Source: Sporosarcina sp. ANT_H38
Lineage (GTDB): Bacteria; Bacillota; Bacilli; Bacillales_A; Planococcaceae
Assembly (NCBI RefSeq): GCF_008369195.1
Contig: NZ_VOBC01000003.1
Span: forward strand, 248,001 to 312,000
Direction: 5' to 3'
DNA: 64,000 bases
This document shows, one piece after another, positions 12,706 through 41,754 of the stretch. The first letter of the stretch is position 1. Every line of letters begins with the position of its first letter. The position numbers and the translations under genes are program-made. The notes under the pieces are model-generated. The model saw only the letters and a list, made by a program, of their open reading frames with translations. It did not search any database and was not told the origin of the DNA.

Positions 12706-13025
12706 TGGAATTCCCCCTCGTGCTTCTTTGCATTTGTATACAGTTCTTTTAGCCGTCCCATTTCGTGGCGCATAAGCGCTTTTCCATCATCCGTAATTTC
12801 ATAAATCGTTTTCCGTTTTTCATCTGCGTAAACGGAAATGATTCCATCCCGCTGCATTTTCGTCAGCGTACCGTAAATGGTTCCGGATCCAAGTACAAGC
12901 CGGTTCTCTGTCAATTCTTCCACGTACTTAATAATGCCATAACCATGGCGTGGTTCCGTCAACGACAGCAAAATATAGAATGCCGTTTCCGTCATCGGAC
13001 TATATGACTTAATGATTTTCTCCAT
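12702..13025 (-). CDS. PadR-family transcriptional regulator
   Basis: The 107-residue winged-helix protein carries the PadR signature: FYILLSLTEPRHGYGIIKYVEELT, then SGTIYGTLTKMQRDGII (recognition helix) and the wing DEKRKTIYEITDDGKALM. Short length indicates the one-domain subfamily 2. ATG 13025 is preferred to the in-frame TTG 13031; the ribosome site is weak for both. It is translationally coupled to the DUF2812 gene and probably represses that operon. Confidence 0.88.
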   Translation of the reverse strand: MEKIIKSYSPMTETAFYILLSLTEPRHGYGIIKYVEELTENRLVLGSGTIYGTLTKMQRDGIISVYADEKRKTIYEITDDGKALMRHEMGRLKELYTNAKKHEGEFQ

Positions 13026-13122
13026 TTTCAATCGGACTCACATCCAGTTCTTTACATTTACTATATCACAACTCGACTGTATCACGGCACGACATAATCA
13101 TCAACCATATTCTGATAAAACA

Positions 13123-13147
13123 AAAAAGACCTCTCCGTAGAAAGGCC
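13123..13147 (-). terminator. Minus-strand terminator-like hairpin
   Basis: GGCCTTTC-TACG-GAGAGGTC stem (two G-T pairs) followed by TTTTTTGTTT on the minus strand. It lies downstream of no confident minus gene; it may stop leakage from 13381-13563. Confidence 0.5.
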
Positions 13148-13237
13148 CTCGCTTTTTACCGTATGAAAAATCGCTAGAACTGAGCAACAGACACATATAC
13201 TTTTTCATTTTTTTAATTTACTACATATATTGAACAC

Positions 13238-13345
13238 ATGAATAACTATATAAACTTAGCCAAGCTGCTTGGCTTTTGGAGGGAGGCATCAACTAGCGCC
13301 ACAGCGGATTCGATTGGCCTATTGATTTCATTCTATATAACGCGT
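13238..13345 (+). CDS. Possible 35-residue small protein (weak)
   Basis: An ATG-to-TAA frame encodes a 35-residue peptide (MNNYINLAKLLGFWREASTS at the start and an aliphatic ISFYITR end), followed 14 nt later by a strong terminator. There is no Shine-Dalgarno site before the ATG, and the perfect GCCAAGC/GCTTGGC hairpin at 13257-13272 lies inside it, so it may be non-coding. The rest of 13026-13380 holds only terminator hairpins. Confidence 0.25.
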
Positions 13346-13358
13346 TAAAAAACAGAAA

Positions 13359-13381
13359 AAAACCTCACTGTGAGGTTTTTC
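13359..13381. terminator. Bidirectional terminator
   Basis: Palindrome AACCTCAC-T-GTGAGGTT with A-tract before and T-tract after it, immediately at the stop of the 13381-13563 gene. Confidence 0.8.
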
Positions 13382-13563
13382 TATTGGTAATCACGTGGAA
13401 GTTTTACTTCATCATCGAAAACGTGGGACTCTCCCCGCTTTTTCTCGAGCATTTCAGGTTGATCATAAATTGGACCACCTTCGCCAATCATCTCTAACTT
13501 GGCGATGAAATCCTTGTTGCGTCTTAATTCCATTTCGGACGACTCAATTGATAAACGTTCCAT
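13381..13563 (-). CDS. Small acidic/basic hypothetical protein
   Basis: A 60-residue hydrophilic peptide (MERLSIESSE...VKLPRDYQ) rich in Glu and Lys, with no membrane or HTH motif. ATG 13563 follows AAAGGATG at a good distance; the in-frame ATG at 13572 overlaps that site. The gene is monocistronic with a clear terminator, which together with codon usage supports it being real. Function unknown. Confidence 0.65.
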   Translation of the reverse strand: MERLSIESSEMELRRNKDFIAKLEMIGEGGPIYDQPEMLEKKRGESHVFDDEVKLPRDYQ

Positions 13564-13758
13564 ATAGAACATCCTTTCATCATTTTAACCGTGGCTAAAT
13601 GTGTCGGAAAACATATAAGCGTTTAACAGTAAGTTGAACTTCTTCTAGCTACTATAATACTAAATTTTCTGACACCTGTAAACAGTTAAATTTTCAACGT
13701 TTTATAGATACGCTAAAGGGCTATAATAGAGATATAGCTACCGGAGGAGGGCACCCCC

Positions 13759-14151
13759 ATGAAGAGAATTATTTTATTCGACGGTGTTTGTAACTTTTGT
13801 GATGCAAGTGTGCAATTCATTATTAAGCGGGATCCTGCCGCCCATTTTCTATTTACTTCATTACAAAGTGAAAAAGGACAGGAACTCACGAAAAAATATG
13901 CCATTCCGGAAGACGTTGACAGTTTGGTTTTGATTGAAAACGGCAAAGCGTTCACTAAGTCTTCAGCAGCGCTCCGTATCGCAAAAAAACTGGACGGATT
14001 ATGGCATCTGTTCTTCCTATTTATACTCGTACCACGTAGAATTCGTGACGTTGTTTATGATTTTATCGCCACGAATCGCTATAAATGGTTTGGCAAGAAA
14101 GAAGATGCGTGCATGTTGCCATCGCCAGAACAGCGTAAACGCTTTATATAA
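13759..14151 (+). CDS. DCC-family (DUF393) thiol-disulfide oxidoreductase-like protein
   Basis: The 130-residue protein begins MKRIILFDGVCNFCDASVQF, containing the DGVCNFCD motif that names the DCC family (a CxxC in a thioredoxin-like fold). A hydrophobic stretch LWHLFFLFILVPRRIRD near residues 82-98 and the conserved YDFIATNRYKWFG follow, as in YuxK-type proteins. GGAGGAGGG precedes ATG 13759. It is a single-gene unit with its own terminator. Redox substrate unknown. Confidence 0.9.
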   Translation: MKRIILFDGVCNFCDASVQFIIKRDPAAHFLFTSLQSEKGQELTKKYAIPEDVDSLVLIENGKAFTKSSAALRIAKKLDGLWHLFFLFILVPRRIRDVVYDFIATNRYKWFGKKEDACMLPSPEQRKRFI

Positions 14152-14157
14152 CCAACG

Positions 14158-14199
14158 ACAAAAGAGGGCCTCCGATTTTTCATCGGGGCCTCCTTTGTC
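14158..14199. terminator. Bidirectional terminator between the DCC and DUF779 genes
   Basis: GGCCTCCGAT...ATCGGGGCCTCC hairpin between flanking AAAG and CTTT tracts, between convergent genes. Confidence 0.8.
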
Positions 14200-14205
14200 A
14201 TTCAC

Positions 14206-14562
14206 TTATACCTGTAATTCTTTGTTTTCTTCAGCCGTAAACGCACGTGACCTAGTCAAAAAGCGTTTTCCTTCGACGCCTTCGAGCGAAAACATTCCAC
14301 CACGACCATTGACGACGTCAATGATTAGCTGCGTATGCCTCCAATACTCGAATTGGTTTTTGTGCATATAGAAAGGTGTTTCACCAATATTGCCGAGTAG
14401 GACGTCCTGATCACCTATAATCAGTTCCCCACTCGGATAACACATCGGCGAGGAGCCATCACAGCAGCCGCCCGACTGGTGAAACATGAGTGGACCGTGT
14501 TTTTCTTTCAAAAAAGCAATGAGTTCCAGTGCAGCGTCAGTTGCAAGTACGCGTTCCGTCAT
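14206..14562 (-). CDS. DUF779 protein, partner of the aldehyde dehydrogenase
   Basis: The 118-residue product has the DUF779 hallmark HQSGGCCDGSSPMCYP near residues 29-44, which contains three cysteines and could bind metal, plus the VVNGRGGMFSLE motif. ATG 14562 is 9 nt after AAAGGGGG; a GTG at 14568 is too close to it. DUF779 genes sit next to AldB-type aldehyde dehydrogenases in many bacteria, and here the gene is 118 nt downstream of aldB, so a role in aldehyde oxidation or enzyme maturation is inferred. The gap 14569-14679 holds GC-rich hairpins but no T-tract. Confidence 0.85.
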   Translation of the reverse strand: MTERVLATDAALELIAFLKEKHGPLMFHQSGGCCDGSSPMCYPSGELIIGDQDVLLGNIGETPFYMHKNQFEYWRHTQLIIDVVNGRGGMFSLEGVEGKRFLTRSRAFTAEENKELQV

Positions 14563-14679
14563 CCGCACTACCCCCTTTTCGAAATCTGTGACATCCGCCG
14601 GAGGCTTTGGGCCGCAAGATGCGGCGTTCTTAGTCTGAGATCCACAATGCAGCGGGTTTTGAACCTCCGCTGAATGAAA

Positions 14680-16221
14680 TTAAAAGAAACCTTGTTTGTT
14701 TTCGCTGTAGCTAACGAGCATATTTTTCGTTTGTTGATAGTGGCTCAACATCATTAAGTGGTTTTCACGACCGACACCGGATGCTTTATAACCACCGAAC
14801 GCAGCATGCGCCGGGTACATGTGGTAACAGTTTGTCCAGACACGTCCCGCTTGAATGCCGCGACCGAAACGGTACGCTGTATTCATATCGCGCGTCCAAA
14901 CACCCGAACCCAAACCGTATAGCGTATCGTTGGCAATTTCAAGCGCTTCTTCTTTTGTTTTAAAAGTTGTAACCGAAACGACAGGACCAAAGATTTCTTC
15001 TTGGAAAATCCGCATTTTATTATTCCCTTTAAAGACAGTCGGCTTGACGTAGTAGCCGTCTTTCAAATCGCCTTCAAGCTGATTTTGCTCTCCGCCAATC
15101 AGGCATTCTGCACCTTCCTGTTTACCGATATCTAGATAAGAAAGAATTTTCTCCAACTGTTCAGTTGACGCTTGCGCACCCATCATGACAGTTGGATCAA
15201 GAGGATTTCCTGTTTTAATCGCTTTAACACGCTCAATTGCACGATCCATGAATTTATCGTAAATAGATTCTTGAATCAACGCGCGTGAAGGACAAGTACA
15301 TACTTCCCCCTGATTCAGTGCAAACATGACGAAGCCTTCTATTGCTTTGTCCAAGAACGAATCGTCTTCGTCCATAATGTCTTCGAAGAAGATGTTCGGC
15401 GATTTACCGCCTAATTCAAGTGTGACAGGGATCGCGTTTTGTGAAGCATATTGCATAATCAGACGTCCTGTTGTTGTTTCACCTGTGAATGCAATTTTTC
15501 CGATACGCGAGCTTGATGCAAGTGGTTTTCCTGCTTCAAGACCGAAACCGTTCACGACATTCAGAACACCAGGTGGCAATAGATCTTCAATCAATTCTAC
15601 AAGTACAAGAATCGATGCAGGCGTCTGTTCAGCAGGCTTCAGCACGACACAGTTACCGGCAGCAAGCGCAGGTGCAAGCTTCCATACTGCCATTAGAATC
15701 GGGAAGTTCCACGGAATAATTTGTCCAACTACACCAATTGGCTCATGGAAATGGTACGCTACTGTATCGTCGTCAATCTGACTGACTCCACCTTCTTGCG
15801 CACGGATTGCACTGGCAAAATAACGGAAATGGTCAATAGCAAGCGGCAAATCTGCATTTAAAGTTTCCCGAACTGCTTTGCCGTTATCCCATGTTTCAGC
15901 AACAGCCAGCATCTCTAAGTTTTGCTCAATGCGATCAGCAATTTTCAGTAACGTATTCGCACGTACCGTCACAGACGTTTTGCCCCAAGCATCTTTTGCA
16001 GCATGTGCCGCATCCAACGCAAGTTCAACATCCTCAGCAGTCGAGCGTGCTACTTCTGTAAATACTTTTCCCGTTACCGGCGTCACGTTATCAAAGTATT
16101 CCCCGTTAACTGGTGCAGTCCATTTTCCACCAATAAAGTTATCATAGCGTTCCTTAAAGTTTACTTTCGCACCTTCTGTGTTCGGAAAAGCATAAATCTG
16201 ATTTTCTACAGCTTGTACCAT
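14680..16221 (-). CDS. aldB: NAD-dependent aldehyde dehydrogenase, AldB type
   Basis: A 513-residue cytosolic aldehyde dehydrogenase that oxidises short aldehydes such as acetaldehyde to the acid with NAD(P). Catalytic Glu269 lies in LELGGKSPN and the nucleophile is Cys308 in [11 protein letters not shown]; a second cysteine (Cys310) lies two residues on, as in AldB/ExaC-like enzymes. The cofactor-binding IPWNFP and FTGETTTG motifs are present. Length is normal. ATG 16221 follows GGGAGG. Forms a transcription unit with the downstream DUF779 gene. I infer a role in alcohol or aldehyde detoxification. Confidence 0.95.
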
Positions 16222-16451
16222 TTTTCCATTCCTCCCTGTGAATTGAATTTTTCACACAATGCCACTATACGTCGCAAACTTCTGCCATATGCGCCTCTTC
16301 CACAAATATATGATTGTATGCGCTTACAACTTTTTAGAAATAAAAAAAGAAGCTTGTCCACTCATTCTGTCAGACTATGTTGATTATTTCAACTACTAGA
16401 CTTTTAAATCGTTCGACATAGATTGACACGTTAATCAATTATTAATTTCTC

Positions 16452-16484
16452 GGTAATAATTTGTTCATATTTCTCCACTAAGAT
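16452..16484 (+). promoter_or_regulatory. htrA promoter with CssR-type direct repeats
   Basis: A 33-bp block ending in a TAAGAT -10 box is 27/33 identical, without gaps, to the block before prsA (19973-20005). It includes two GTxxATAxTTT-like units about 10-11 bp apart (GGTAATAATTT, GTTCATATTT), the spacing expected for an OmpR-family dimer. The -10 to start distance is also conserved (32-33 nt). Confidence 0.7.
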
Positions 16485-16516
16485 AAAGGTAATCATATAA
16501 AACGGGAGGAATTATC

Positions 16517-17683
16517 ATGGAGACAGAAAATAAAAACGGATTAGGTAAACGGTTTTTATCGACACTAGGAGCAGGTGTTATTGGTTCAGTATTAACGTTA
16601 GCGGTCGTCGTCAATACAGATGTACTGCAAGCCGATTCCACCGACGTGGTACCTGCCACTACGGATACGGTTCCCTATAATGTCCAGCAAACAAGTGCTA
16701 AAGATACACCGTCACTTTCCGACATGGTAGAACAGTCTTCCGGTGCGATTGTCGGGATTGTGAATTACCAACAAGAAAATAATCCTTTCTCACAGCAAGC
16801 CGGGAGTTCCAAGAACGGTTCAGGTTCAGGTGTCATTTATAAAATAGAAGGTGACAAAGCGTTTATTGTGACGAATAACCACGTCATCGAAGACGCAGAA
16901 AAGCTCGAGGTCTCACTTGAAAGTGGAGAGACAACGAAGGCTACACTTGTCGGGAAAGATGCGCTAAGTGACCTTGCAGTCCTAACAATCGACGCGAAGT
17001 ATGCAGACACTTCCCTTGAATTCGGAGATTCCGATAAACTACGTGCAGGAGACGATGTTATCGCTATTGGTAATCCTCTTGGCCTCGATTTCTCCGGCAC
17101 AGTGACCCAGGGAATTGTGAGTGCAGTCGATCGATCCATTAATGTGGAGACGTCTGCAGGTCAATGGGAAATGAATGTTATTCAAACGGACGCTGCCATT
17201 AACCCCGGCAACAGTGGCGGTGCACTCCTTAATGCAGCAGGACAAGTCATTGGCATTAACAGCTTAAAAATTTCTGAAAGTGGTGTTGAAGGACTAGGCT
17301 TTGCGATTCCAAGTAACGAAGTCATTCCATTGATTGAGGAAATGACAGAACACGGACAAATTGAACGCCCATACATCGGTATCGGACTCGCGGATCTTGA
17401 TCAGGTGCCACGGACCTACTTGCAAAGTCTTCCAAATGAAGTTACAGCTGGTGTGGTAATTGCAAATATTGATCCTGAATCGGCAGCAGGAAAAGCCGGC
17501 CTCGATGTAGAAGATATAATAACTGCGATTAATGGTACTGAAGTGAAGAACTCGACAGAACTTCGAAAGTTCTTGTACGCTAATCTTTCTGTCGGTGACA
17601 AAGCCACATTTACGATCTATCGCGGTGCAGAGTTAAAAACGATTGACGTTTTACTTACAAGCAATGTATCCACGGCAAATTAA
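16517..17683 (+). CDS. htrA: HtrA-like membrane-anchored serine protease (S1C)
   Basis: A quality-control protease/chaperone acting at the outer face of the membrane on misfolded secreted proteins. The 388-residue protein has a short cytosolic N-terminus, one membrane anchor (about residues 14-33), a trypsin-like domain with triad His122 (TNNHVIE), Asp152 (ALSDLAV) and Ser233 (GNSGG), and one C-terminal PDZ domain (residues 280-380). Start ATG follows GGGAGG. Adjacent to a CssRS-like two-component system and prsA, as in Bacillus secretion-stress regulons. Confidence 0.95.
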   Translation: METENKNGLGKRFLSTLGAGVIGSVLTLAVVVNTDVLQADSTDVVPATTDTVPYNVQQTSAKDTPSLSDMVEQSSGAIVGIVNYQQENNPFSQQAGSSKNGSGSGVIYKIEGDKAFIVTNNHVIEDAEKLEVSLESGETTKATLVGKDALSDLAVLTIDAKYADTSLEFGDSDKLRAGDDVIAIGNPLGLDFSGTVTQGIVSAVDRSINVETSAGQWEMNVIQTDAAINPGNSGGALLNAAGQVIGINSLKISESGVEGLGFAIPSNEVIPLIEEMTEHGQIERPYIGIGLADLDQVPRTYLQSLPNEVTAGVVIANIDPESAAGKAGLDVEDIITAINGTEVKNSTELRKFLYANLSVGDKATFTIYRGAELKTIDVLLTSNVSTAN

Positions 17684-17696
17684 TATATTCGCGCAA

Positions 17697-17727
17697 ACAC
17701 CTCTCCTTCATTCCACAGGAGAGGTGT
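17697..17727 (+). terminator. Terminator after htrA
   Basis: ACACCTCTCC/GGAGAGGTGT hairpin with an 11-nt loop; the T-tract is interrupted (TTAGTTAGTT), so partial read-through into the two-component genes is possible. Confidence 0.65.
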
Positions 17728-17798
17728 TAGTTAGTTGCTAATTTCTTATTTTCGATTTAGCTTGAAAGGAATAGCAGTGCAACAGGAGGTGGTTTTTA

Positions 17799-18500
17799 GT
17801 GAAGATTTTAGTTATTGAAGATAATGAGAGTGTATCTTCAATGATTGAACTATTCTTTTTGAAGGAAGAAATCGATGGTTCATTCATAAAAAACGGTTTG
17901 GAAGGTTTCGAACTTGCGTTGCAAGGTGGCTGGGATTGCATTATTATCGATTGGATGTTGCCTGGCATGGACGGCATTTCGATTTGCCGTAAACTCCGGT
18001 CTGAAAACATTGGGACACCGATTATTATGCTAACTGCAAAAGACGGTGAATCAGACCTGGTGCTCGGACTTGAAATGGGTGCAGATGATTATGTCACAAA
18101 ACCATTTAGTCCACTGGCGCTCATTGCCCGCATTAAAGCGGTGACACGCAGGTATTCAACACCGAAAGACAAACCAACACAAGATGGCGTCGTCAAAACA
18201 ACCCACTTTAGCATCAATTTAAACACGCGAGACGTTTTTCTCAATGGCGTACGGGTACAAAACTTGACCCCGAAAGAATTCGATCTGCTCTACCACTTTG
18301 TACAGCATCCCAAACAAGTTTTCTCACGCGAGCAATTGCTGGATAGTGTGTGGGGCTATGACTTTTACGGTGATGACAGAACTGTCGACGTACACATTAA
18401 ACGGCTTCGCACGAAAGTCTCAACCGATGAACAACCTTTTTTCCATACTGTTTGGGGCGTTGGTTATCGATTCGACGAAACCTTAGGTGATTCAAGGTGA
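17799..18500 (+). CDS. cssR: OmpR-family response regulator, CssR-like
   Basis: The 233-residue regulator has a receiver domain with phospho-acceptor Asp51 (IIIDWMLPG), the switch Thr in LTAKD and the conserved Lys in VTKPF, then a winged-helix DNA-binding domain (LTPKEFDLLYHF...RTVDVHIKRLR...GVGYRF). The start is GTG 17799, 6 nt after AGGAGGTGG. It is coupled to the histidine kinase gene by a GTGA overlap. Location between htrA and prsA points to control of secretion stress (CssR); the name rests on context, not on a diagnostic residue. Confidence 0.88.
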   Translation: MKILVIEDNESVSSMIELFFLKEEIDGSFIKNGLEGFELALQGGWDCIIIDWMLPGMDGISICRKLRSENIGTPIIMLTAKDGESDLVLGLEMGADDYVTKPFSPLALIARIKAVTRRYSTPKDKPTQDGVVKTTHFSINLNTRDVFLNGVRVQNLTPKEFDLLYHFVQHPKQVFSREQLLDSVWGYDFYGDDRTVDVHIKRLRTKVSTDEQPFFHTVWGVGYRFDETLGDSR

Positions 18501-19912
18501 AAGTGAAATACTTATACCAACAACTTGTCAGTCATTTCAGCGTAATCGTCATCGCCTTTTTACTATTAAGCTTGCTATTTTCTCACTATATCGAGCAGTT
18601 TGTTTATGATACTAAAACGGTAGAACTCGCGGAATATGGACAAACTATTTTATATGATATCCAACAAGACCAACGAAATTCGGACGGAATTTTAAAGTCT
18701 TACGGACACATCCTAAATGGTCGGGATATTCAATATAGTTTATTCGACGAAAATTCATCCATCATCTATTCAACAGGCATAAAAACGCCGCTTATAAGTT
18801 TGAGTAAAGAAGAATGGCACGATATTAAAAATGGTGAAACTGTAACTGTGAAGCAGGATTTCAAACGATTCAACGAAGCCGTTACATTTGTACTTCTTCC
18901 GTATATGCAAAACAATCAATTTGGCGGCGGTATCCTTTTAACGTCACCCATAAAAGGCTCGCGAGAAGTTATTTCGCAAATGAATAACTATTTGCTTGTT
19001 ACAACATTCATCGCACTTGCCATTTCACTTCTTCTTAGCTGGATTTTATCGACTTTTCACGTTAGGAGAATTAAAGGACTCCAAGAAGCAACTTCTGCCG
19101 TTGCACAAGGTGATTACTCAGTACGCATCCCCTCTTCGGATTTTGATGAAATCAGTGAACTTGCGGGTGATTTTAATAAAATGGTTGAAAAATTAGATGC
19201 CTCAATGGAGGAAATTGAAAATCTTGAAAACAGGCGTCGCCAATTCATGGCAGATGTATCACACGAATTACGAACACCACTTACAACGATAAGAGGCATG
19301 ATTGAGGGCCTAAAAAACAATATGATTCCTGAATCTGAAAAAGAAAAAGGACTACAGCTCGCAACAAATGAAACGTTAAGACTTATTCGTCTGGTCAATG
19401 AAAACTTGGATTACGAAAAAATCAGATCCAACCAAGTTACACTCATTAAACAGGACATCCAGCTTGTTGAATTGTTGGAAATTATCAAGGATCATCTCGA
19501 TGGCGTTGCGGCGGAACGAAATAATGAGATTTTTGTGGATGTAGACCCCAATATAATGGTGTTTGCAGATTATGATAGACTGACCCAGATATTGATCAAC
19601 ATCACGAAAAACAGTATTCAATTTACCAGCAACGGAAGAGTTCTTCTTCGTGGTTATACGAGTGACAATACCTGTATCATCGAAATTGAAGATACAGGTA
19701 TCGGGATTGACCCCCATGATATCGAGAAAATTTGGGGACGGTTTTATAAAGCAATTGAGTCTAGAACAACAAATCCGTATGGCGAATTCGGGCTCGGCTT
19801 ATCGATTGTAAAAAGTCTAGTAATGATGCATAACGGTGCAATCGACGTAACAAGTGAAAAAGGAAAAGGAACGAAATTCACACTATCGTTCCCCGTACAA
19901 AACGAAAACTAA
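18497..19912 (+). CDS. cssS: Membrane sensor histidine kinase, CssS-like
   Basis: The 471-residue kinase has two membrane helices (about residues 12-30 and 165-185) enclosing a 135-residue extracytoplasmic sensor, a HAMP domain (190-242), a HisKA helix with phospho-His256 (DVSHELRTPL), and an HATPase domain with N (NITKNSIQF), G1 (DTGIGI) and G2 (GEFGLGLSIV) boxes. GTG start overlaps the regulator gene. In Bacillus, CssS senses misfolded exported proteins and HtrA; the neighbours here agree. Confidence 0.9.
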   Translation: MKVKYLYQQLVSHFSVIVIAFLLLSLLFSHYIEQFVYDTKTVELAEYGQTILYDIQQDQRNSDGILKSYGHILNGRDIQYSLFDENSSIIYSTGIKTPLISLSKEEWHDIKNGETVTVKQDFKRFNEAVTFVLLPYMQNNQFGGGILLTSPIKGSREVISQMNNYLLVTTFIALAISLLLSWILSTFHVRRIKGLQEATSAVAQGDYSVRIPSSDFDEISELAGDFNKMVEKLDASMEEIENLENRRRQFMADVSHELRTPLTTIRGMIEGLKNNMIPESEKEKGLQLATNETLRLIRLVNENLDYEKIRSNQVTLIKQDIQLVELLEIIKDHLDGVAAERNNEIFVDVDPNIMVFADYDRLTQILINITKNSIQFTSNGRVLLRGYTSDNTCIIEIEDTGIGIDPHDIEKIWGRFYKAIESRTTNPYGEFGLGLSIVKSLVMMHNGAIDVTSEKGKGTKFTLSFPVQNEN

Positions 19913-32765: not shown

Positions 32766-33599
32766 CTAGGCAAGCGCTAATGCTAATCTTGAATTAGGCC
32801 TCTTACCATCTGAAATAAGACTATTTATACGCTCTATGAGCTCGGGAAGTTCACGCATCGTTAGAATCGTAAAGTCCGCACCATTTTGCATAAAGGAATT
32901 TTCTGTTTTAGAGATTGCAGTTTCTTTATCAGCTTCTGACAAACGCGTAAATCCGTCTAAATCCTGTCCCATTTCAGAGCTTCCTATAATGACGCCAACT
33001 GACCAAACACCCGCATTAACGCCCTCTTTAATATCTGAAACCGTATCGCCTACTTTTACTACCTTCCATGATGCCGATAGTTTAAGTTGCTCCATATTCC
33101 GATAAATCATATAAGGGTACGGTCTTCCAATCGAATTTGTGTCATCAGGGGTCACAAAGACGTCTGGGTAATACCCCTTCTCCAACGCATTCGGAACTAC
33201 GACATCCATCATTGTATTTGTATAGCCCGTTGTCGATCCAATTTTCAATCCTCGACCTCTTAATACGTCCATTGTTTCTATAACTCCGGGAATTGGATCC
33301 GTGTACGCTGACAATGAAGCCATCAATGCAGGCACAAATTTCGCATACAAATTCTCTACATCTTGTTCGTTAAATAATCTCCCATACTTTTCTTCCCATA
33401 ATACTGCTATTCTAGGCATGTACAACATAGCGCGAATATGATCAATTTTCAGCATCCCCATTGGCTCTCTTGCTTCTCCCATTGTCACGTCAATACCAGC
33501 ATCTTTAAAGATATCAACAAATACATTTACAGGTGCAAAACAGCCAAAATCTACTGTTGTCCCAGCCCAATCCAATATGACGCCTTCTACTTTATTCAT
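32766..33599 (-). CDS. phnX: Phosphonoacetaldehyde hydrolase (phosphonatase)
   Basis: A HAD-fold enzyme that cleaves phosphonoacetaldehyde to acetaldehyde and phosphate. From ATG 33599 the 277-residue product has the nucleophile Asp10 in ILDWAGTTVD, Schiff-base Lys51 in EPMGMLKIDHI (diagnostic for PhnX), GSTTGYTNTMMD and the GDTVSDIKEG motif. It overlaps the phnW stop by 4 nt. Last gene of the 2-aminoethylphosphonate (2-AEP) operon. Confidence 0.96.
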   Translation of the reverse strand: MNKVEGVILDWAGTTVDFGCFAPVNVFVDIFKDAGIDVTMGEAREPMGMLKIDHIRAMLYMPRIAVLWEEKYGRLFNEQDVENLYAKFVPALMASLSAYTDPIPGVIETMDVLRGRGLKIGSTTGYTNTMMDVVVPNALEKGYYPDVFVTPDDTNSIGRPYPYMIYRNMEQLKLSASWKVVKVGDTVSDIKEGVNAGVWSVGVIIGSSEMGQDLDGFTRLSEADKETAISKTENSFMQNGADFTILTMRELPELIERINSLISDGKRPNSRLALALA

Positions 33600-34690
33600 T
33601 TTGCCACCACTTTCATATACTCTTCTACACCAACACATAATTCCTCTATATCTTCTTCATAGATTTCACCTATATTGCCAATGCGGAAAGTATCTATGTT
33701 CGTCAGCTTACCTGGATAAATGACATAACCTCTGTCTTTGATAAACGAATAGAATGCTTCAAAGTCGAACTGTTCATTTGGAAAAAGGAAAGTTGTAATA
33801 ATGGGCGATTGTTTGTCAGCTGTGATATAGGCATGTATATTTATTTTTTCAAATCGCTCTCTTAACAAGCGATTATTATGCTGATACCGGGAAAATCTAG
33901 CTGGGATACCGCCTTCTTCAACTAATTCTTCCAACGCTTTTGCGAATGCAGCTACTACATGCGTTGGGGATGTATAACGCCATTTCCCATCCTTGTTCAT
34001 CTCTTTCCACTGATCATATAAATCCAGCGACAAACTACGTGCATTGCCTTCACATGCGACAAGCTTCTCAATTTTTGCGATGACAAATCCAAACCCAGGG
34101 ACCCCTTGAATGCATTTATTTGCGCTACTAATTAAATAATCAATTTCAAGTTCAGCTACATTGATCTCCATCCCACCAAAGCTACTCATAGCATCAATGA
34201 TTAGTGTTTTCCCTTGTTCCTTCGCTAAGTTCGAAATCATCTCAATCGGATTTAAAATACCTGTCGTTGTTTCACAATGAACCATTGCGATATGCGTAAT
34301 TTCTTGATCGTCTATTAAAATACGTCTTATCTCGTCTTCCTTCGGATAGTCATTGTATGCCACACTATATTCTACGTAATTAAGTCCAATATACTGAGCC
34401 ATTTTCACAATACGTTCGCCATAAGCACCATTCGTTACAATCAGCACTTTATCGTCTCTTGAAACGGCAGTCGTCAGTACCGATTCAACGACAAACGAAC
34501 CACTTCCTTGCATAAGTACAGTCGTATATTCCTCTTTTGTAGCACATGCGAATTCAAGAAGCTGGGATCTGATTTTTTGTGTAATTTCTTTATAGTCTTG
34601 CTCCCATGTGCAACGATCAAGCAGCATTTCCTGTTTTACCGTACTTGTAGTTGTCAACGGGCCAGGCGTTAGTAGTTTATAAGTATTCAT
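33596..34690 (-). CDS. phnW: 2-aminoethylphosphonate-pyruvate transaminase
   Basis: A PLP class V aminotransferase that converts 2-AEP plus pyruvate to phosphonoacetaldehyde plus alanine. The 364-residue protein begins MNTYKLLTPGPLTTT, with MQGSGSFVVES (cofactor phosphate), VHCETTTGI, and Lys192 in SSANKCIQGVPG as the PLP lysine. Length fits PhnW. Coupled to phnX and 21 nt downstream of the binding-protein gene. Confidence 0.96.
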   Translation of the reverse strand: MNTYKLLTPGPLTTTSTVKQEMLLDRCTWEQDYKEITQKIRSQLLEFACATKEEYTTVLMQGSGSFVVESVLTTAVSRDDKVLIVTNGAYGERIVKMAQYIGLNYVEYSVAYNDYPKEDEIRRILIDDQEITHIAMVHCETTTGILNPIEMISNLAKEQGKTLIIDAMSSFGGMEINVAELEIDYLISSANKCIQGVPGFGFVIAKIEKLVACEGNARSLSLDLYDQWKEMNKDGKWRYTSPTHVVAAFAKALEELVEEGGIPARFSRYQHNNRLLRERFEKINIHAYITADKQSPIITTFLFPNEQFDFEAFYSFIKDRGYVIYPGKLTNIDTFRIGNIGEIYEEDIEELCVGVEEYMKVVAK

Positions 34691-34711
34691 ATTCTTTCAC
34701 TCTCCCTAATT

Positions 34712-35698
34712 TTAATTAGCTGATTTAAAGAATTCTCGATGCTGCTGTAAGAGTTCAACGGTTAATGGTTGTTCAAATTGCATCGCATGAGCCGGTTTGT
34801 TCACATCCATCACTCTTTCACCTTCGTAAAGCGCAACCGGATAATGTGTCAGCAACTCTTTTCGAGCATTTTTCGTAATTATTTCGGCCATGACCATTGC
34901 TAAACTTGTTGTTGCATCGTCTTTATTCACAACCGCAATTGATTCTGTAAGAGAAAAGTTACCTTCAATTGGATCGACATACTCAATCGGTAAGCCCGAT
35001 TCTTTAGCCATTACTGCCTGGTAACGCAAACCAAAACCAGCAGCCACTTCGCCAGCTTGGACTTTCTTAATAGGACCTGAACCTGAACTTTCAAGATGTG
35101 GACCCGTATTGGCTATTAAATCTTGGAGAACCGCTTTCCCATCTTGTTCCCCATATTCGCTAACAATCGCTTGGACTAGCAACCAACCCGTTGAAGAGTC
35201 CATAATATTTGGAATCGACACCAAACCCTTAAACTCAGGTTTCGCCAAATCTTTCAGGGAAGTTGGCATCGCCAAACCCTTTTGCTTGAATACTTCTGTA
35301 TTAACAAAAATGGACCCTGTATTGCCTAAAATCGGTGCATAATAGGGCAAATTTTGTTCTAACGCATTTGTACTAAACGTTAAGTCCTTAAACATGGCAT
35401 GTTGTTTTTGAGCACTTTCGATGAAATAAGAACTCATCGCCACAACATCTGCTTCGATTTTATCGCCCTCTGCCATCAGTTTCCCGCCTAATTCGGAAGT
35501 TCCTAAAGATTGAAGCACATATTCCCCTTCATATCCCGCATCATTCAATGCATTTTCCATAGCCCCAGAGGCCGCTTCATCCCCATTTGTATAAATAACA
35601 ACCTGTCCTTCATCGGCATTGCCACTGTTACGCCCCGCCCATATAAACACTAAACTTAAAGCAATTAGCGACAATACGATTACCTTCATCTTTTTCAC
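34712..35698 (-). CDS. 2-AEP ABC transporter substrate-binding protein
   Basis: A 328-residue periplasmic-type binding protein (PhnS-like) with GQVVIYTNGDE at the N-lobe start, SLGTSELGGKLMAEG and the STGWLLVQAIV hinge region. GTG 35698 is chosen because GAGGGGGA lies 7 nt upstream; the long N-terminal extension in the frame is not needed. The signal sequence MKKMKVIVLSLIALSLVFIWAG is followed by Arg where a lipoprotein Cys would be expected; CGT is one transition from TGT. So either it is secreted without a lipid, is kept by an uncleaved signal, or the site is mutated. Confidence 0.88.
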   Translation of the reverse strand: MKKMKVIVLSLIALSLVFIWAGRNSGNADEGQVVIYTNGDEAASGAMENALNDAGYEGEYVLQSLGTSELGGKLMAEGDKIEADVVAMSSYFIESAQKQHAMFKDLTFSTNALEQNLPYYAPILGNTGSIFVNTEVFKQKGLAMPTSLKDLAKPEFKGLVSIPNIMDSSTGWLLVQAIVSEYGEQDGKAVLQDLIANTGPHLESSGSGPIKKVQAGEVAAGFGLRYQAVMAKESGLPIEYVDPIEGNFSLTESIAVVNKDDATTSLAMVMAEIITKNARKELLTHYPVALYEGERVMDVNKPAHAMQFEQPLTVELLQQHREFFKSAN

Positions 35699-35711
35699 TA
35701 TAATATCCCCC

Positions 35712-37331
35712 TCATGATTGTTTGAATGGTCTTTTTTGAAAGTGATCACAAAGCAACTTGACGGCTAGATTTGTAAAGAAGATGAGTAGAGATAAAATGA
35801 ATACTTCATTGAATTTACCGAAATGCTGTAGTTCTTTAATTTTGTTAGCTACCAATGACGTTTGTGCTGTGACTAAAAAGATGATCCCGCTAATCGTCAC
35901 CATGGCATTGATAAAGTAATAGCTAAACATTTCAATAACCGTCGATGCGGAGTTTGGAAGAATTACCCGATAGATGGTTTTTAACCAGCTATCCCCCAAT
36001 AACTCTCCAGTCGTTTCCCAAGTCGGATTCATTTTGGATAAAGCGTTTTTAGCCATTAAATAGGGTGTTGTAAAGAAATGGACAATGTTACAGAGAACGA
36101 TAATTAGAAAGGTTCCTTTCAAACTACTACCGTTAAATAATAGTAAATATGATAAACCTAACACCATGCCTGGTATCGTATTGGTCATCATCGACACGAT
36201 ATCAATAGATGATCTCCATTTCACAGTCGTACGAGTATTTAACACTGCTGAACAATACGCGACTAACGTACCAAACACTGCCGTCAATAGCGCAACAAAC
36301 AATGAATTTTTATAGACAGTTAGTAGATTATTCGATTGGAATGTGTCCATAAAATGTTTAAAAGTAAATGTGAAATCATAAGGATAACTGTTTACAAATG
36401 GTGCAATGAACATGACAGCAAACACTGAAAGCATTGCTAGTAACACGGCTAATGATATAATCCCAAAGCCTGTGTCCCTCCCCTTATGCGGAGCCAACTC
36501 TGTGTCGGTAAACTTGTCATAATGAAAATTAAGTTTTTCGAGGTAGTTTAAAAGTAAAACAGCAAACACAGCCGGGATTAACATGATAACCGCTATAGCT
36601 GCACCATTATTAAAATCTGGGATGGAACCAAGCATAACTTGGTATAACTGAGTCGCTACAACAGAATAAGTCCCACCGATTGAAGCTGGTATGCCGAAAT
36701 CAGTAAAGCTTAAAATGAAAGAAAGTACAAAAGCGCCACCCAAAGTCCCCACTAATGGACGGACTATAGTGTTCTTAAAACTCTTTAGCACCCCGTCACC
36801 CATCAGCTTTGAAACGACGATAAACTTCTTGTCAACATACTTGAAGGCGTTATTAATCAGAAGAAAGGCAGCTGGTAACGTATAAATCACATAGCCTATC
36901 AGTAAACCGTTAAATCCGTAAATATCAACTAAGTTTCGGCCGACAATCTTGGTAATTAACCCTTGGTTTCCAAATGAGTAGATAATTGAAAATCCATATG
37001 TAATGGTAGGCAGCAACATCGGAATAAGAATCCCTATTTTAATCGCACTTTTTAACGGCCTGTAGATCCTTGTACAATTGACGGCATAAGCCAGAATAAA
37101 TGCCAAAACCGTTGTAATCACAGCAGCAAGGCCGGAAACTTTAACGCTGTTACCAACGGACTCTAGCAATTCTTTATCCGATAAAACGGTTAGGTAATTC
37201 GAGAAATTGAACCCCTCACTTGTTTCAAAAGAACGAACTAACAACATACCAAGAGGTACTACTAGAAATGTGATGAATAACAAGATGATTGGGATGTAAA
37301 TAACGCGCATCGCCGGTTTTACATTAGGCAT
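35712..37331 (-). CDS. 2-AEP ABC transporter permease (double-length)
   Basis: A 539-residue integral membrane protein with about twelve helices made of two fused permease halves, each with an EAA-type loop (near residues 170-200 and 430-460: [21 protein letters not shown]). It therefore replaces a PhnU/PhnV pair. ATG 37331, 5-6 nt after GGTGA, overlaps the end of the ATPase gene by 8 nt; an in-frame TTG at 37343 is less likely. Moves 2-AEP inward with the ATPase and binding protein. Confidence 0.88.
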
Positions 37332-38076
37332 AGTGTTCACCAAATAAGTTATAGATGTTTAGCCTCTTAATCTGTAATTGTTTTAGAATAAACTCTTTTA
37401 CGAAATCAGTAGTAGGCTGGTTGATAATTTCAGTAGGCGTACCAAATTGAGAAATACTACCGTCATTGATAATTAAAACTTTGTCCGACAACGTTAATGC
37501 CTCTTCTGGGTCATGCGTCACAATAATCGTCGTCAACTTAAATTCTCTGGCTATGGATTTAATGCGCTGCTTAATCGATTCCTTTATGACACCGTCTAAC
37601 GCACTCAACGGTTCATCCAATAATAATATTTTCGGCTTCATGACGAGCGTTCTTGCAATAGATACCCGCTGTTTCTGACCACCCGATAATTCCCCGATTT
37701 TCTTTGTTAAATGCGGTTTTAATTCCAAAAAGTCAATGTACTCTTGAATTTCCTCTTCAGATACTAGCCCCTTGTTATTTTTCAAACCATAGACAATATT
37801 TTCGTATGCATTTAGATTAGGAAAAAGCGCATAATCTTGAAATACGATATTAAATCCACGATCCTTCATCGCTACGTTACTCAAATCCCTATCATTAAAA
37901 ATAATTTTTCCGTGATCCATACTCGTTAACCCTAAAATAATATGTAATAAAGTCGTTTTACCACTACCACTCGGACCTAGTAGTGAAACAATCTCCCCTG
38001 GCTCAATCTCAAGATTTATGCCATCTAGAACTAACTTATCATCGAATAGCTTGCTAATATTTTGTAATTTCAGCAA
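37324..38076 (-). CDS. 2-AEP ABC transporter ATP-binding protein
   Basis: A 250-residue ABC ATPase: Walker [11 protein letters not shown]-loop VFQDYALFP, signature LSGGQKQR, Walker [13 protein letters not shown] and switch His in [14 protein letters not shown] 38076 lies 8 nt after AAAGGAGG, while the in-frame GTG 38085 overlaps that site. First gene of the five-gene 2-AEP operon (ATPase-permease-binding protein-phnW-phnX). Similarity to spermidine/iron type importers is general; the substrate is assigned from phnWX. Confidence 0.88.
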
Positions 38077-38103
38077 ACCGTACACCTCCTTTACTACAAC
38101 TTT

Positions 38104-38158: not shown

Positions 38159-38207
38159 ACTTTATTTTTTCACTACTTTTTTTGACAAATTGGTACACTT
38201 TTACAGC

Positions 38208-38273
38208 AAAAAAATGCCTGCGCAGCAACCATCATGAACATGTAAACATTCACGACAGGTTGCTGTACAGGCA
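38208..38273 (-). terminator. Terminator of the parM-parR operon
   Basis: Long hairpin TGCCTG..CAGCAACC / GGTTGCTG..CAGGCA just after the parR stop, with TTTTTTT on the minus strand. It also separates parMR from the phn promoter. Confidence 0.85.
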
Positions 38274-38280
38274 CCCAACA

Positions 38281-38820
38281 TTATTTATTCATCTGAGCAA
38301 GAAAATCACCTAAAGGATCATCTTCCTCTTCTTCTACAGGCGTGTTTTCCGGCTCTTTTAACTGTTCCCAATCAAAGTTATCCAGATCATCATCCGTATC
38401 AGCGTTTATCAAGAAATCTTCTGTCTCCAGGTCTTCCGCAGCAGCCGTTTCTTCCTGAAGATATAAGGCTGCATCTACATCTATTGCATTACTATTAAGT
38501 GATGCAAAGAGGGCCGATGTGCGGATTGGATCGGACATCAACTGATATACGATACTTCCGAGTAGCGCCTCAGAATGTTCATGCTTCAACCAATCGCGTT
38601 GCGCTTTAGTTAAACCTTTTGGAAGCGCAATCGTAATAGCCTCTCTATGTTTTACTAGAGAATCATTCACGCCTTCTATCACGAACTCTGCAATTTTGCT
38701 GGAAAAGTTTCTTCTTTCAACTTCTTTTAACTTTTGTAACTCCCTTAAGGTATGGTCAGATGTATCGGAAGGAAGGCGAAACGTAATAGGCTGACCCCTT
38801 TTCAATCCTGTTTCACTCAT
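38281..38820 (-). CDS. ParR-like RHH adaptor of a type II partition system
   Basis: A 179-residue protein with a ribbon-helix-helix start: strand QPITFRLPSDTSD (residues 10-22) and two helices (HTLRELQKLKEV, RRNFSSKIAEFVIEGV). A second alpha-rich part (KAQRDWLKHEHSEALLGSIVYQLM) follows, then a very acidic tail (residues 125-179: EDLETEDFLINADTDDD... ending GDFLAQMNK). This is the ParR plan: DNA-binding RHH dimer plus a C-terminus that contacts the actin-like filament. It lies 11 nt after parM in the same transcript, AAGGTGAT before ATG 38820. Assignment is by architecture and position. Confidence 0.75.
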   Translation of the reverse strand: MSETGLKRGQPITFRLPSDTSDHTLRELQKLKEVERRNFSSKIAEFVIEGVNDSLVKHREAITIALPKGLTKAQRDWLKHEHSEALLGSIVYQLMSDPIRTSALFASLNSNAIDVDAALYLQEETAAAEDLETEDFLINADTDDDLDNFDWEQLKEPENTPVEEEEDDPLGDFLAQMNK

Positions 38821-38831
38821 GACTTATCACC

Positions 38832-40013
38832 TTACTTTGTTTTAACGAACTTTTCTTCTTCTTTATTTTTTGCTTTTTGACTTTTTCTAGCAAAATCTGA
38901 AATTAATTTGTAATAAGCGTTAGCCATCATCCAAACGCTTTCTTTTTCATCCTCAAAGAAATCAATGTTATAGCCATCTAAGCTATTATTTAGCGTTTTA
39001 AGATAATCTTTAAGGACGATAGAGCCTCCGCCGATGAAATAGCAAATCTCAGATTGCGAGTTTCTTTGCCATACATTCCGTAAATGACGGTATTGCTTTT
39101 TCGCTAAATCCAAGAGAATCCGGTCTACAATATCATGCACGCTTGTCCGGCTTCCTTTTACCATGATATGATTACGGTTATTTTTCTTCGTAATAATATC
39201 CACAACATCTAAACGACTGTCCAACTCTACGCCATGTCTAGCATAAATTTCTTCCCGAATCGCATCAAGAGACTCTGACACGCCTAAGTTGAAGCCTTGT
39301 GCCTTATCGTCATCGACTTTACGATTTCTAATAACTGCAACATCCGTTGATAACCCACCGATGTCTTGTATCAAGATTTGTTTATCGATTAATTCTTTAT
39401 TAATGATATTTAAATTATTATCCATTACAAGGTTGATAAACGCAGCAAAGCCTTCCGGATAAACCTTTACTTCATCAAATTTAATGTTTACTTTTATACC
39501 TTGATATTTAGGTGTAACCAAAAACTCTACTTGGTGAACTGAGCTAAGCAATTGGGAACGATAACCCACGTCTTTCCCTTCTTTTACTTCTCTTAGAGGA
39601 AGTCCTGTTCCAAGTATATACGTAGCTTCAATTACATTGTTATTACGTTTAAAAATACCTTTATTTTCGTCACGGGCTGCATCTAATGCCAGTGCCGCAA
39701 ACAACATCACCAAGGTTTGATCTTCCTCAGACTTGTTACTTCCTTGGTCTAGCTCAGTTGAACTACCACTTTTCGTCGCTAAATTACCAACACGATAAAT
39801 AGCGTTGTTATCTTTTAATGTTGGAGAGTGTAAACGAATATGAATGCCATCAGTAGGATCTTGGTTGTCTAGTTCTTCAATACCGATGATTGGACGATCT
39901 GCAACATCCTGTGCAATTACATTTGGTATATTGAGCTCTGCTTCCAACTTACCGAAAATCGCTTTCAATGAATCATTTCCTACGTCTATTGCTGCAATAC
40001 GTGCTTCTGTCAA
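38832..40013 (-). CDS. ParM/StbA-like actin-family ATPase
   Basis: A 393-residue actin-like ATPase of the plasmid-segregation type. Phosphate-1 motif AAIDVGNDSLKAIFG (residues 7-21), phosphate-2 IQDIGGLSTDVAVI (215-228), adenosine motif FIGGGSIVLKDYL (about 326-338); the family motif YPEGFAAFI near 185 is also present. TTG 40013 is preferred: AAAGGA lies 8 nt upstream, whereas the in-frame ATG 40022 and GTG 40034 overlap or precede that site. The gene follows a GTATAC repeat array and precedes a ParR-like gene, giving the parC-parM-parR order of plasmid R1. Plasmid origin or an integrated plasmid/phage remnant is inferred. Confidence 0.85.
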   Translation of the reverse strand: MTEARIAAIDVGNDSLKAIFGKLEAELNIPNVIAQDVADRPIIGIEELDNQDPTDGIHIRLHSPTLKDNNAIYRVGNLATKSGSSTELDQGSNKSEEDQTLVMLFAALALDAARDENKGIFKRNNNVIEATYILGTGLPLREVKEGKDVGYRSQLLSSVHQVEFLVTPKYQGIKVNIKFDEVKVYPEGFAAFINLVMDNNLNIINKELIDKQILIQDIGGLSTDVAVIRNRKVDDDKAQGFNLGVSESLDAIREEIYARHGVELDSRLDVVDIITKKNNRNHIMVKGSRTSVHDIVDRILLDLAKKQYRHLRNVWQRNSQSEICYFIGGGSIVLKDYLKTLNNSLDGYNIDFFEDEKESVWMMANAYYKLISDFARKSQKAKNKEEEKFVKTK

Positions 40014-40051
40014 AATAATCATCCTTTCAATCACTATATCTTTCTACTAAA

Positions 40052-40095
40052 ATCGTATCGGAGTTCTGCTGGTTGGTCAATGCCATTTAGGCATT
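40052..40095 (-). promoter_or_regulatory. parM promoter with overlapping inverted repeat
   Basis: Minus-strand TTGACC (40075-40080), 17-bp spacer, TACGAT (40052-40057), 39 bp before the start codon. The inverted repeat AATGCC-ATTTA-GGCATT (40079-40095) touches the -35 and may serve autoregulation. Confidence 0.7.
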
Positions 40096-40115
40096 TATCA
40101 TACAAATGTAATATT

Positions 40116-40272
40116 GTATACATCCATGTAATCTTGTACACAATTCCGTATACCCATGTATACACTGGATGTGTACGCGTTTGTTTACTTGTATACGTTA
40201 TTGTTTACTTTTGTATACAAATTCGTATACAACACTACTATTGATGTGTACAACACTCCTATCAATGTATAC
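40116..40272. repeat. Centromere-like (parC) array of GTATAC iterons
   Basis: Seven GTATAC palindromes (40116, 40148, 40158, 40191, 40213, 40225, 40267) and three one-base variants (GTACAC 40136, GTGTAC 40171 and 40246) lie in 157 bp. Start-to-start distances are 20, 12, 10, 13, 20, 22, 12, 21 and 21 bp, close to whole helix turns. Flanking bases often extend to TTGTATACAA or ATGTATACAT. The array sits upstream of parM, where R1-type systems have parC. Confidence 0.75.
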
Positions 40273-40839: not shown

Positions 40840-41754
40840 CTACGGAGTATCCGATTCAATCCGTTTCATGAATTCCTCTACAGCACTATAACCTTGCTGT
40901 TTTAAATACCAGTTATTTGCCGCCGCTTCAATCAAACCTGCAATATCACGACCCGGCTGAAGTTGAATTTGGATATGCGGAATCTGAACGTCCATGTATT
41001 CCACAAACTTCGTTTCCTGCTCCAACTCATTATTCAAGTCATTTTCCTTCCACTTGGTCAATTCGATATCTAGTGCAATCCGGGTTTCATCCTGGAAAGC
41101 AGCTCTTCCATAAAGGCGAACCACGTTTAACAAACCAATACTGCGCAGCGCGAGAAATTCTTTGCTATTTTCATCGTGCGTGCCGAGCAAAGTTTGAGGG
41201 CTAAGTTTTTTCAACACCACCACATCATCTGCTACAAGTCGATGCCCCCGACCAATCAATGTATGAGCCGTCTCACTTTTCCCCACACCAGACTTGCCGC
41301 GGAGGAGAATGCCCATCCCTGAAACATTGACACACACTCCATGTATTGCAATTTCTGGAGCCATTGCTTTCACAACATACGCATCCAATTTCGCGCTCAG
41401 TTCACTCGTGGAGTCACGCGTGCGTAATACCGGGATTTGCTCTTCCGTACAGTATTGAATAAGGCCTAGTGGCTCTTCCTGTTGGGATGTAATAATGATA
41501 CAAGGAGGCGCATATTGAACAATATTCGCAATTCGTAACTTGCACTCCTCAAACGTCAGCATATGAAGGTAATTAACCTCGTTTTTACCTAGAATCTGAA
41601 TATGTTCTGTTGCAATGAAATCAAATTTATCCATAAACTCTAATCCCGGACGACGTACTTTGGATTTTTTTATAATACGATGCAATTGATCGTGTCCGCT
41701 CAACACTTCTAATGAAAAGCTCTTAACAATCTCTTCAATCGTAATAGTCTTCAT
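40840..41754 (-). CDS. Divergent HPr kinase/phosphorylase paralogue
   Basis: HprK phosphorylates Ser46 of HPr to control carbon catabolite repression. This 304-residue protein keeps the HprK plan: N-terminal domain, His138 in AIHGVCV, Walker A GKSGVGKSE (153-161), VADDVV (175-180) and the C-terminal QPGRDIAGLIEAAANNW. The HprK signature normally reading E-x-R-G-(I/L)-G is A-L-R-S-I-G here (202-207), losing the acidic residue and first glycine. It stands alone rather than next to lgt, where the housekeeping hprK usually lies. It may be a kinase with altered balance or another target. Confidence 0.8.
   Translation of the reverse strand: MKTITIEEIVKSFSLEVLSGHDQLHRIIKKSKVRRPGLEFMDKFDFIATEHIQILGKNEVNYLHMLTFEECKLRIANIVQYAPPCIIITSQQEEPLGLIQYCTEEQIPVLRTRDSTSELSAKLDAYVVKAMAPEIAIHGVCVNVSGMGILLRGKSGVGKSETAHTLIGRGHRLVADDVVVLKKLSPQTLLGTHDENSKEFLALRSIGLLNVVRLYGRAAFQDETRIALDIELTKWKENDLNNELEQETKFVEYMDVQIPHIQIQLQPGRDIAGLIEAAANNWYLKQQGYSAVEEFMKRIESDTP

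Follow-up and report, generated by a model that had tools for sequence, protein, structure and literature searches.

A candidate actin-type partition cassette conserved left of the chromosomal replication origin in Sporosarcina and other Bacillus-like bacteria

The operon and its parts

The window analysed here is a stretch of 64,000 nt from Sporosarcina sp. ANT_H38 (GCF_008369195.1), positions 248,001-312,000 of contig NZ_VOBC01000003.1 (497,419 bp). On its minus strand we found an operon that reads, in order, array, promoter, alp, parR-like gene and hairpin terminator, with the following features (window coordinates):

40116..40272, no strand: parC-like array of ten GTRYAC sites, several of them TGTATACA
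40052..40080, minus strand: sigma-A type promoter TTGACC-17-TACGAT, between array and alp (sequence match)
38832..40013, minus strand: alp, actin-like ATPase of 393 aa (Pfam Alp7A_like_C and ALP_N, invariant motifs, Foldseek)
38281..38820, minus strand: parR-like adaptor gene, 179 aa (putative RHH N-terminus, acidic linker, C-terminal peptide LGDFLAQMNK)
within 38205..38283, minus strand: operon terminator, a strong hairpin followed by a T run (-39.4 kcal/mol, z -6.7)

An earlier note on this DNA had described a complete type II partition module ordered parC-parM-parR, and our findings on the array, Alp and the adaptor support a type II-like module of that order. The strong terminator that the note named was confirmed by the folding energy listed above; a simple terminator scan did not list this hairpin. 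At window 32766-38085, genes for a HAD hydrolase, a class-V aminotransferase, a solute-binding protein, a permease and an ABC ATPase follow one another (Pfam families), a row that we take to be an operon for the uptake and breakdown of 2-aminoethylphosphonate. Upstream of the array lies a gene for HPr kinase/phosphorylase (window 40840-41754).

The Alp protein was actin-like by Pfam, by motifs and by Foldseek, which upholds the note's claim of a ParM-like ATPase. It scored 110.7 bits against Alp7A_like_C (cut-off 22, E 7e-32) and 43.4 bits against ALP_N (cut-off 26.3, E 5e-11), and stayed below the gathering cut-off of Pfam ParM (22.4 vs 27.4 bits). The actin-type phosphate motifs were invariant in 39 sequences, the invariant positions including DVGND, DIGGLSTD and GGG. 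With the AF2 model of Alp (mean pLDDT 61), the top Foldseek matches were B. thuringiensis ParM, Dh-cParM1, Alp7A and pSK41 ParM, a match of predicted fold that is clear despite the low confidence of the model. Against PDB sequences, phmmer returned no match for Alp or ParR, and a profile of Alp returned two weak ParM matches (E 0.003-0.006) together with three weaker, unrelated ones. Because of the pattern of conservation, translation of alp probably starts at the TTG at 40013 and not at the GTG at 40034 that opens the longest ORF.

The partner gene was adjacent to alp in 80/80 named loci, starting 5-21 bp after it, and its product is 177-208 aa long across loci. Its first 100 residues were homologous to plasmid ParM-adjacent proteins when aligned to a profile of 10 plasmid partners (hhalign 99.8%, E 7e-30), one of which matches Arc at E 0.042. 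The RHH fold of this region is putative and read solely from a sequence pattern: the Pfam search of the partner gave nothing useful, Foldseek with its AF2 model (poor, mean pLDDT 63) gave no significant match, and a partner profile found chance matches only among PDB sequences. An acidic, variable middle part leads to a near-invariant stretch of 11 C-terminal residues (consensus LLGDFLAQMNK). By analogy with ParR of plasmid R1, this tail is likely to be the filament-binding element. One PDB entry (4a62) bears the title of R1 ParM with the ParR C-terminal peptide.

In line with the ten GTATAC-like sites of the note, ten GTRYAC sites lie within the 157 bp of the array, and their start-to-start distances (20, 12, 10, 13, 20, 22, 12, 21 and 21 bp) come to about one or two helix turns each. 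This is the sole such cluster in the contig, where any other 160-bp stretch holds at most three sites. Using a core pattern wider than GTRYAC, GT[ATG][TAC]AC, we found 5-15 core sites per 200 bp upstream of alp in all 100 loci tested (80 named loci plus 20 of the class sample; with three or more genomes in both sets, about 97 are distinct). At each of these loci, none of 300 first-order resamples attained the observed count, and random 420-bp windows of the named loci held 0-4 core sites, with a single window holding 9. Site pairs were phase-coherent near 10.75-11 bp (81 regions, 1933 pairs), a figure that stands without a shuffle baseline. Counted as GTRYAC alone, fewer than four sites occurred in six of 81 upstream regions (L081, L068, L074, L083, L098 and L104), and the broader core gave a significant cluster in all. 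Upstream of position 10001 in L081, GTTTAC and GTTTGC stand in place of GTRYAC, variants which suggest that site sequence and adaptor specificity may have drifted there.

The note had also proposed a sigma-A promoter with an overlapping dyad. The promoter part stood: TTGACC-17-TACGAT is present at 40080-40052, and a TTGAC-type promoter occurs at the equivalent place in 41/81 loci, vs 12/800 random windows. Promoter-like matches in the region as a whole were no commoner than in shuffles (12 vs a mean of 10.1). The dyad is present in the window, which is the one locus of 81 to have it, and it is thus not a conserved operator.

These data bear on a reading in which the module is a repurposed cytoskeleton, with Alp and ParR serving a role away from DNA (e.g., in cell shape) and the array acting only as an operator for autorepression by ParR. 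We consider this reading unlikely, while allowing it some weight. The array does lie within the control region of the operon; every locus tested has, however, 5-15 core sites in 200 bp, which would exceed the needs of an operator. Precedents are known in cyanobacteria, since FcmB and FcmC, chromosomal derivatives of ParM and ParR, are needed for the rod shape of Nostoc (available text of PMC12645912), and a PDB entry title records a filament of Anabaena CorM with CorR; Alp, for its part, scored far under the cut-off of the NCBIfam FcmB model NF052678 (31.2 vs 300 bits). This reading also leaves the origin-left position, described below, unexplained.

Distribution and descent

In order to establish how widely the cassette occurs, we searched genomes, plasmids and phages. 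In the genus Sporosarcina, an Alp ortholog was found in 14/61 genomes at 85-100% identity, our own genome included, and the partner in as many (14/61); no match at ortholog level was found in the other 47/61 genomes, four of which are less than 90% complete. In the class sample, 24/398 genomes (own included) carried an ortholog at 77-100% identity, with the next best matches at 45% or below. In the order of Bacillales to which genome G360 belongs, 145/299 sampled species had an ortholog at 74-84% identity; a 146th genome had a 27% match only, and two genomes had extra copies (42% and 35%). Among the best 80 of 419 confirmed stretches, the hosts include Sporosarcina, Rossellomorea, Cytobacillus, Gottfriedia, Siminovitchia, Mesobacillus, Psychrobacillus, Heyndrickxia and Ammoniphilus. 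Every listed ortholog is unbroken, with no internal stop in any listed at order level. The Pfam domain of Alp was found in none of 14 control genomes, B. subtilis included. Absence from 47/61 genomes of its own genus and from B. subtilis indicates that the cassette is dispensable in the group, and that Soj/Spo0J suffices elsewhere.

The earlier note had left room for an integrated plasmid or a phage-derived island, and neither found support. Among the 37 window proteins scanned by Pfam (taken from 108 mechanical ORFs of at least 80 aa), there was no replication protein, in line with the note's remark that no rep gene lies nearby, and integrases, transposases, relaxases and structural proteins of phages were likewise absent. 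PLSDB (72,556 plasmid records) gave 44 records that match Alp, the best at 43% identity and none at 60% or more; the cassette itself is chromosomal, on the same replicon as dnaA. Phage records gave three weak Alp matches only. When 12 of the 44 plasmid Alps were put into one tree with the 41 chromosomal ones, the latter formed a single clade, with a support of only 0.64.

Related plasmid systems exist in Bacillales, and the cassette might be a chromosomal guardian or competitor that partitions incoming plasmids of the related Alp family, or disturbs them via shared sites. A B. subtilis plasmid (L168) does have TGTATACA sites upstream of its alp, but at least four core sites per 200 bp upstream occurred in just two of the 12 plasmid loci examined; there was no PADLOC match, and a guardian gives no reason for the origin-left position. 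We regard this explanation as very improbable.

The occurrence of the cassette was also compared with that of the spore gene SpoIVA. All 24 class-sample genomes with an ortholog have SpoIVA, and none of the 131 genomes without SpoIVA has an ortholog. Filibacter is a genus not known to form spores. In Filibacter tadaridae (L037, taken as genome G058), the cassette and SpoIVA are both present.

We then examined descent. Across 41 genomes, pairwise identity averaged 0.808 for Alp, vs 0.782 for DnaA, 0.766 for GyrB and 0.753 for GyrA (40 genomes for GyrB and GyrA); the Alp value also exceeded those of DnaN and RecF, and ParR stood at 0.588. Where every gene was present (40 genomes), distances in the Alp and ParR trees correlated with the core-gene tree at r 0.55 and 0.44, vs 0.92-0.96 for core genes, and well-supported splits conflicted with the reference in 9/20 cases for Alp, 6/15 for ParR and 0-4 of 17-28 for core genes. 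The AU test, which covered Alp, ParR, DnaN and GyrB, rejected the core tree with Alp (645 lnL) and with ParR (359); with DnaN (26) it did not. Simple vertical descent of the cassette is thereby rejected. The reference tree was rejected for GyrB too (74 lnL, p 0.003), which makes the contrast between Alp and core genes one of degree. Single pairs ran in both directions, with our own genome at 0.835 for Alp and 0.705 for DnaA vs G278, and at 0.773 and 0.819, respectively, vs G209 of the same family.

When window positions 28001-52000 were compared with loci of other genera, DNA similarity was limited to parR-alp and at most part of the array in 6/6 comparisons. Taken together with the tree conflict, this indicates horizontal spread as a cassette of about 2 kb, every placeable copy of which lies in the same zone. 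A fixed insertion site, at which the note had asked whether the locus would be found in all relatives, was rejected: the immediate neighbours differ, and the 80 loci fall into 22 neighbourhoods by shared nearest neighbours, 13 of them with a dnaA-mapped member (15 and 8, respectively, by a looser rule). In locus L045, the cluster that adjoins the cassette (12416-19080) contains gas-vesicle proteins (Gas_vesicle, GvpL_GvpF), and an equivalent of this cluster lies beside the cassette in 14/80 named loci, seven of them named Rossellomorea.

Position relative to dnaA

To place the cassette on the chromosome, we looked in 115 genomes for dnaA with PF00308 and for alp with a protein search. In all 93 genomes with both on one contig, the cassette is located 31-417 kb to the left of dnaA and is transcribed in the direction away from it; the other 22/115 were not placeable relative to dnaA. 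The first set, for which 49/80 named loci were searched, held 75 distinct genomes after eight reached twice had been dropped, of which 56/56 placeable ones had the cassette on the left and on the strand opposite to dnaA, 31-417 kb off, and 19 were not placeable. The second set consisted of 40 further genomes, mostly of few contigs, from the 145 found at order level; here the result was 37/37 on the left and on the opposite strand, with 3/40 not placeable. Complete or nearly complete chromosomes (1-3 contigs or a chromosome record, with the main contig taken as circular where the distance crosses its ends) were origin-left in 34/34 cases, at a median of 85 kb and a maximum of 417 kb, and they represent at least 16 GTDB families. 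Our own genome has alp at 200 kb to the left of dnaA. The neighbours of dnaA there are genes of the ParA, Spo0J and Noc types, identified from their order and families (cut-offs were passed by the Noc and ParB-domain models alone), together with parS-like sites, of which one is exact.

Replichore, orientation and origin-near zone are thus constant in every placeable genome despite the differing neighbours; the cassette has moved between genera yet stays in the origin-left zone. Since the Alp tree rejects the core tree, this position is not simply a matter of shared descent. Some points weigh against a role at the origin. Genes that read away from the origin are common in these bacteria. As a control, the spore gene SpoIVA was placed in three ortholog-bearing genomes, and its coarse position is also kept, 1.6-1.7 Mb left of dnaA. 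Recombination of an incoming allele with the resident copy can keep a gene in place without selection.

Distant Alps behaved differently. Five with 32-45% identity, placed on chromosomes, were scattered around the circle at -3077, +403, +1259, -132 and -2341 kb from dnaA; the one at +1259 kb has an internal stop, and the one at -132 kb is on the same strand as dnaA. Other distant Alps were on contigs apart from dnaA or not placed. This scatter speaks against the idea that the cassette is an integrated plasmid or phage remnant, or sits near the origin solely for gene dosage, as do the unbroken state of every listed ortholog and the lack of replication or integration genes among the 37 window proteins scanned. 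Horizontal movement does occur and non-orthologous relatives do sit on plasmids, but we give a remnant or a dosage effect hardly any credence. Among the possibilities named in the earlier note, we strongly favour the third, an actin system that serves the chromosome; what that role would be is something we infer.

Proposed action and comparison with known systems

We take the cassette to be an actin-type (type II-like) partition system of the chromosome, one that would act on the host origin region beside Soj/Spo0J, and hold this at roughly even confidence; a domesticated actin-type centromere system is our best reading. The array, at 200 kb from dnaA on its left side in our genome, would be occupied by adjacent ParR dimers, whose C-terminal peptides would recruit Alp filaments or cap them. 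After replication, the complexes of ParR with the array on both new origin-left regions may then capture these filaments, whose ATP-driven growth would push apart, move or anchor the newly copied regions, in the way that ParMRC works on plasmids. The array, the partner, the ATPase motifs, the conserved tail and the position are consistent with this scheme; that ParR binds DNA, that Alp forms filaments, and that these exert force on the chromosome or anchor it are its predictions. With Soj, Spo0J, Noc and parS sites also present, the cassette would supplement them.

The zone itself is one in which cells are known to hold the chromosome: in B. subtilis, a region of 250 kbp to the left of oriC holds most of the ram sites of RacA, and the prespore traps a segment whose centre is slightly to the left of oriC (available text of PMC4949633). 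Both facts would also suit a sporulation-specific version, in which the filament would draw the origin-left region to the pole, or anchor it there, during axial filament formation, in the RacA zone. The co-occurrence with SpoIVA (24/24 and 0/131, as above) fits a role in spore formers, but it is confounded by descent, SpoIVA being present in 267/398 genomes of the class sample, and the promoter is sigma-A-like; we find this version rather improbable.

If the partition reading were right, the cassette could be the first case of actin-based chromosome segregation or origin anchoring in bacteria, a ParMRC-like centromere left of oriC in about half of the order's sampled species, beside ParABS, and retained only when it lands origin-left. 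This larger claim is put forward tentatively. Many Bacillus-like bacteria have a plasmid-type actin system near the replication origin, and an actin filament may help to position their chromosome. Conserved, widespread and oriC-proximal, the family offers tractable Bacillus-like species for testing whether chromosomes are moved or anchored by actin, and a view of how a plasmid machine turns into a host one.

Like ParMRC of R1 and pSK41, the cassette has the order array-actin-adaptor, the actin ATPase motifs, a conserved adaptor C-terminal peptide and iterated upstream sites. In contrast to them, it is chromosomal, origin-bound and very strongly conserved, its sites are short palindromes, Pfam ParM falls below cut-off, and the adaptor has 177-208 aa. 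Alp7A (pLS20) and the plasmid Alps of Bacillales are similar in that Alp7A_like_C is far above cut-off and the partner N-terminus is homologous. The cassette Alp is, however, at most 44.5% identical to the 12 plasmid Alps compared, whose partners have 130-153 aa, none ending in LGDFLAQMNK and most with an acidic FA...F-like tail.

Chromosome-encoded ParMs have been described from Desulfitobacterium, Clostridium and Bacillus tropicus, among others, and several species of Bacillus share a conserved Bt-cParM (Ali et al., 2025; main text of PMC12270681). There, cParR bound cparC for Cb-cParM and a role of cParMs beyond plasmids was proposed, a role in chromosome segregation being described as not yet shown. 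The cassette is similar in that its ParM-like gene is on the chromosome and conserved in relatives. Its family may overlap with Bt-cParM1/2 of B. tropicus. It differs in that Dh-cParM1 is about 16% identical in the Foldseek alignment; the main text of PMC12270681 names neither Sporosarcina nor Cytobacillus, and oriC is in its reference list only. FcmB/FcmC, which the authors conclude were acquired from a plasmid system (available text of PMC12645912), and CorM/CorR (PDB 9rmi) are likewise chromosomal ParM/ParR-like pairs. Unlike FcmB/FcmC, with their role in cyanobacterial cell shape, the cassette keeps a site array near the origin and misses the FcmB model. Chromosomal ParMs are therefore already published; an origin-bound Alp family in Bacillales appears unreported in the open-licence literature, where we found no such report. 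Finally, the cassette resembles Soj/Spo0J/parS and RacA/ram of Bacillus in its presumed site of action, the origin and the origin-left region, and differs from both in being actin-based.
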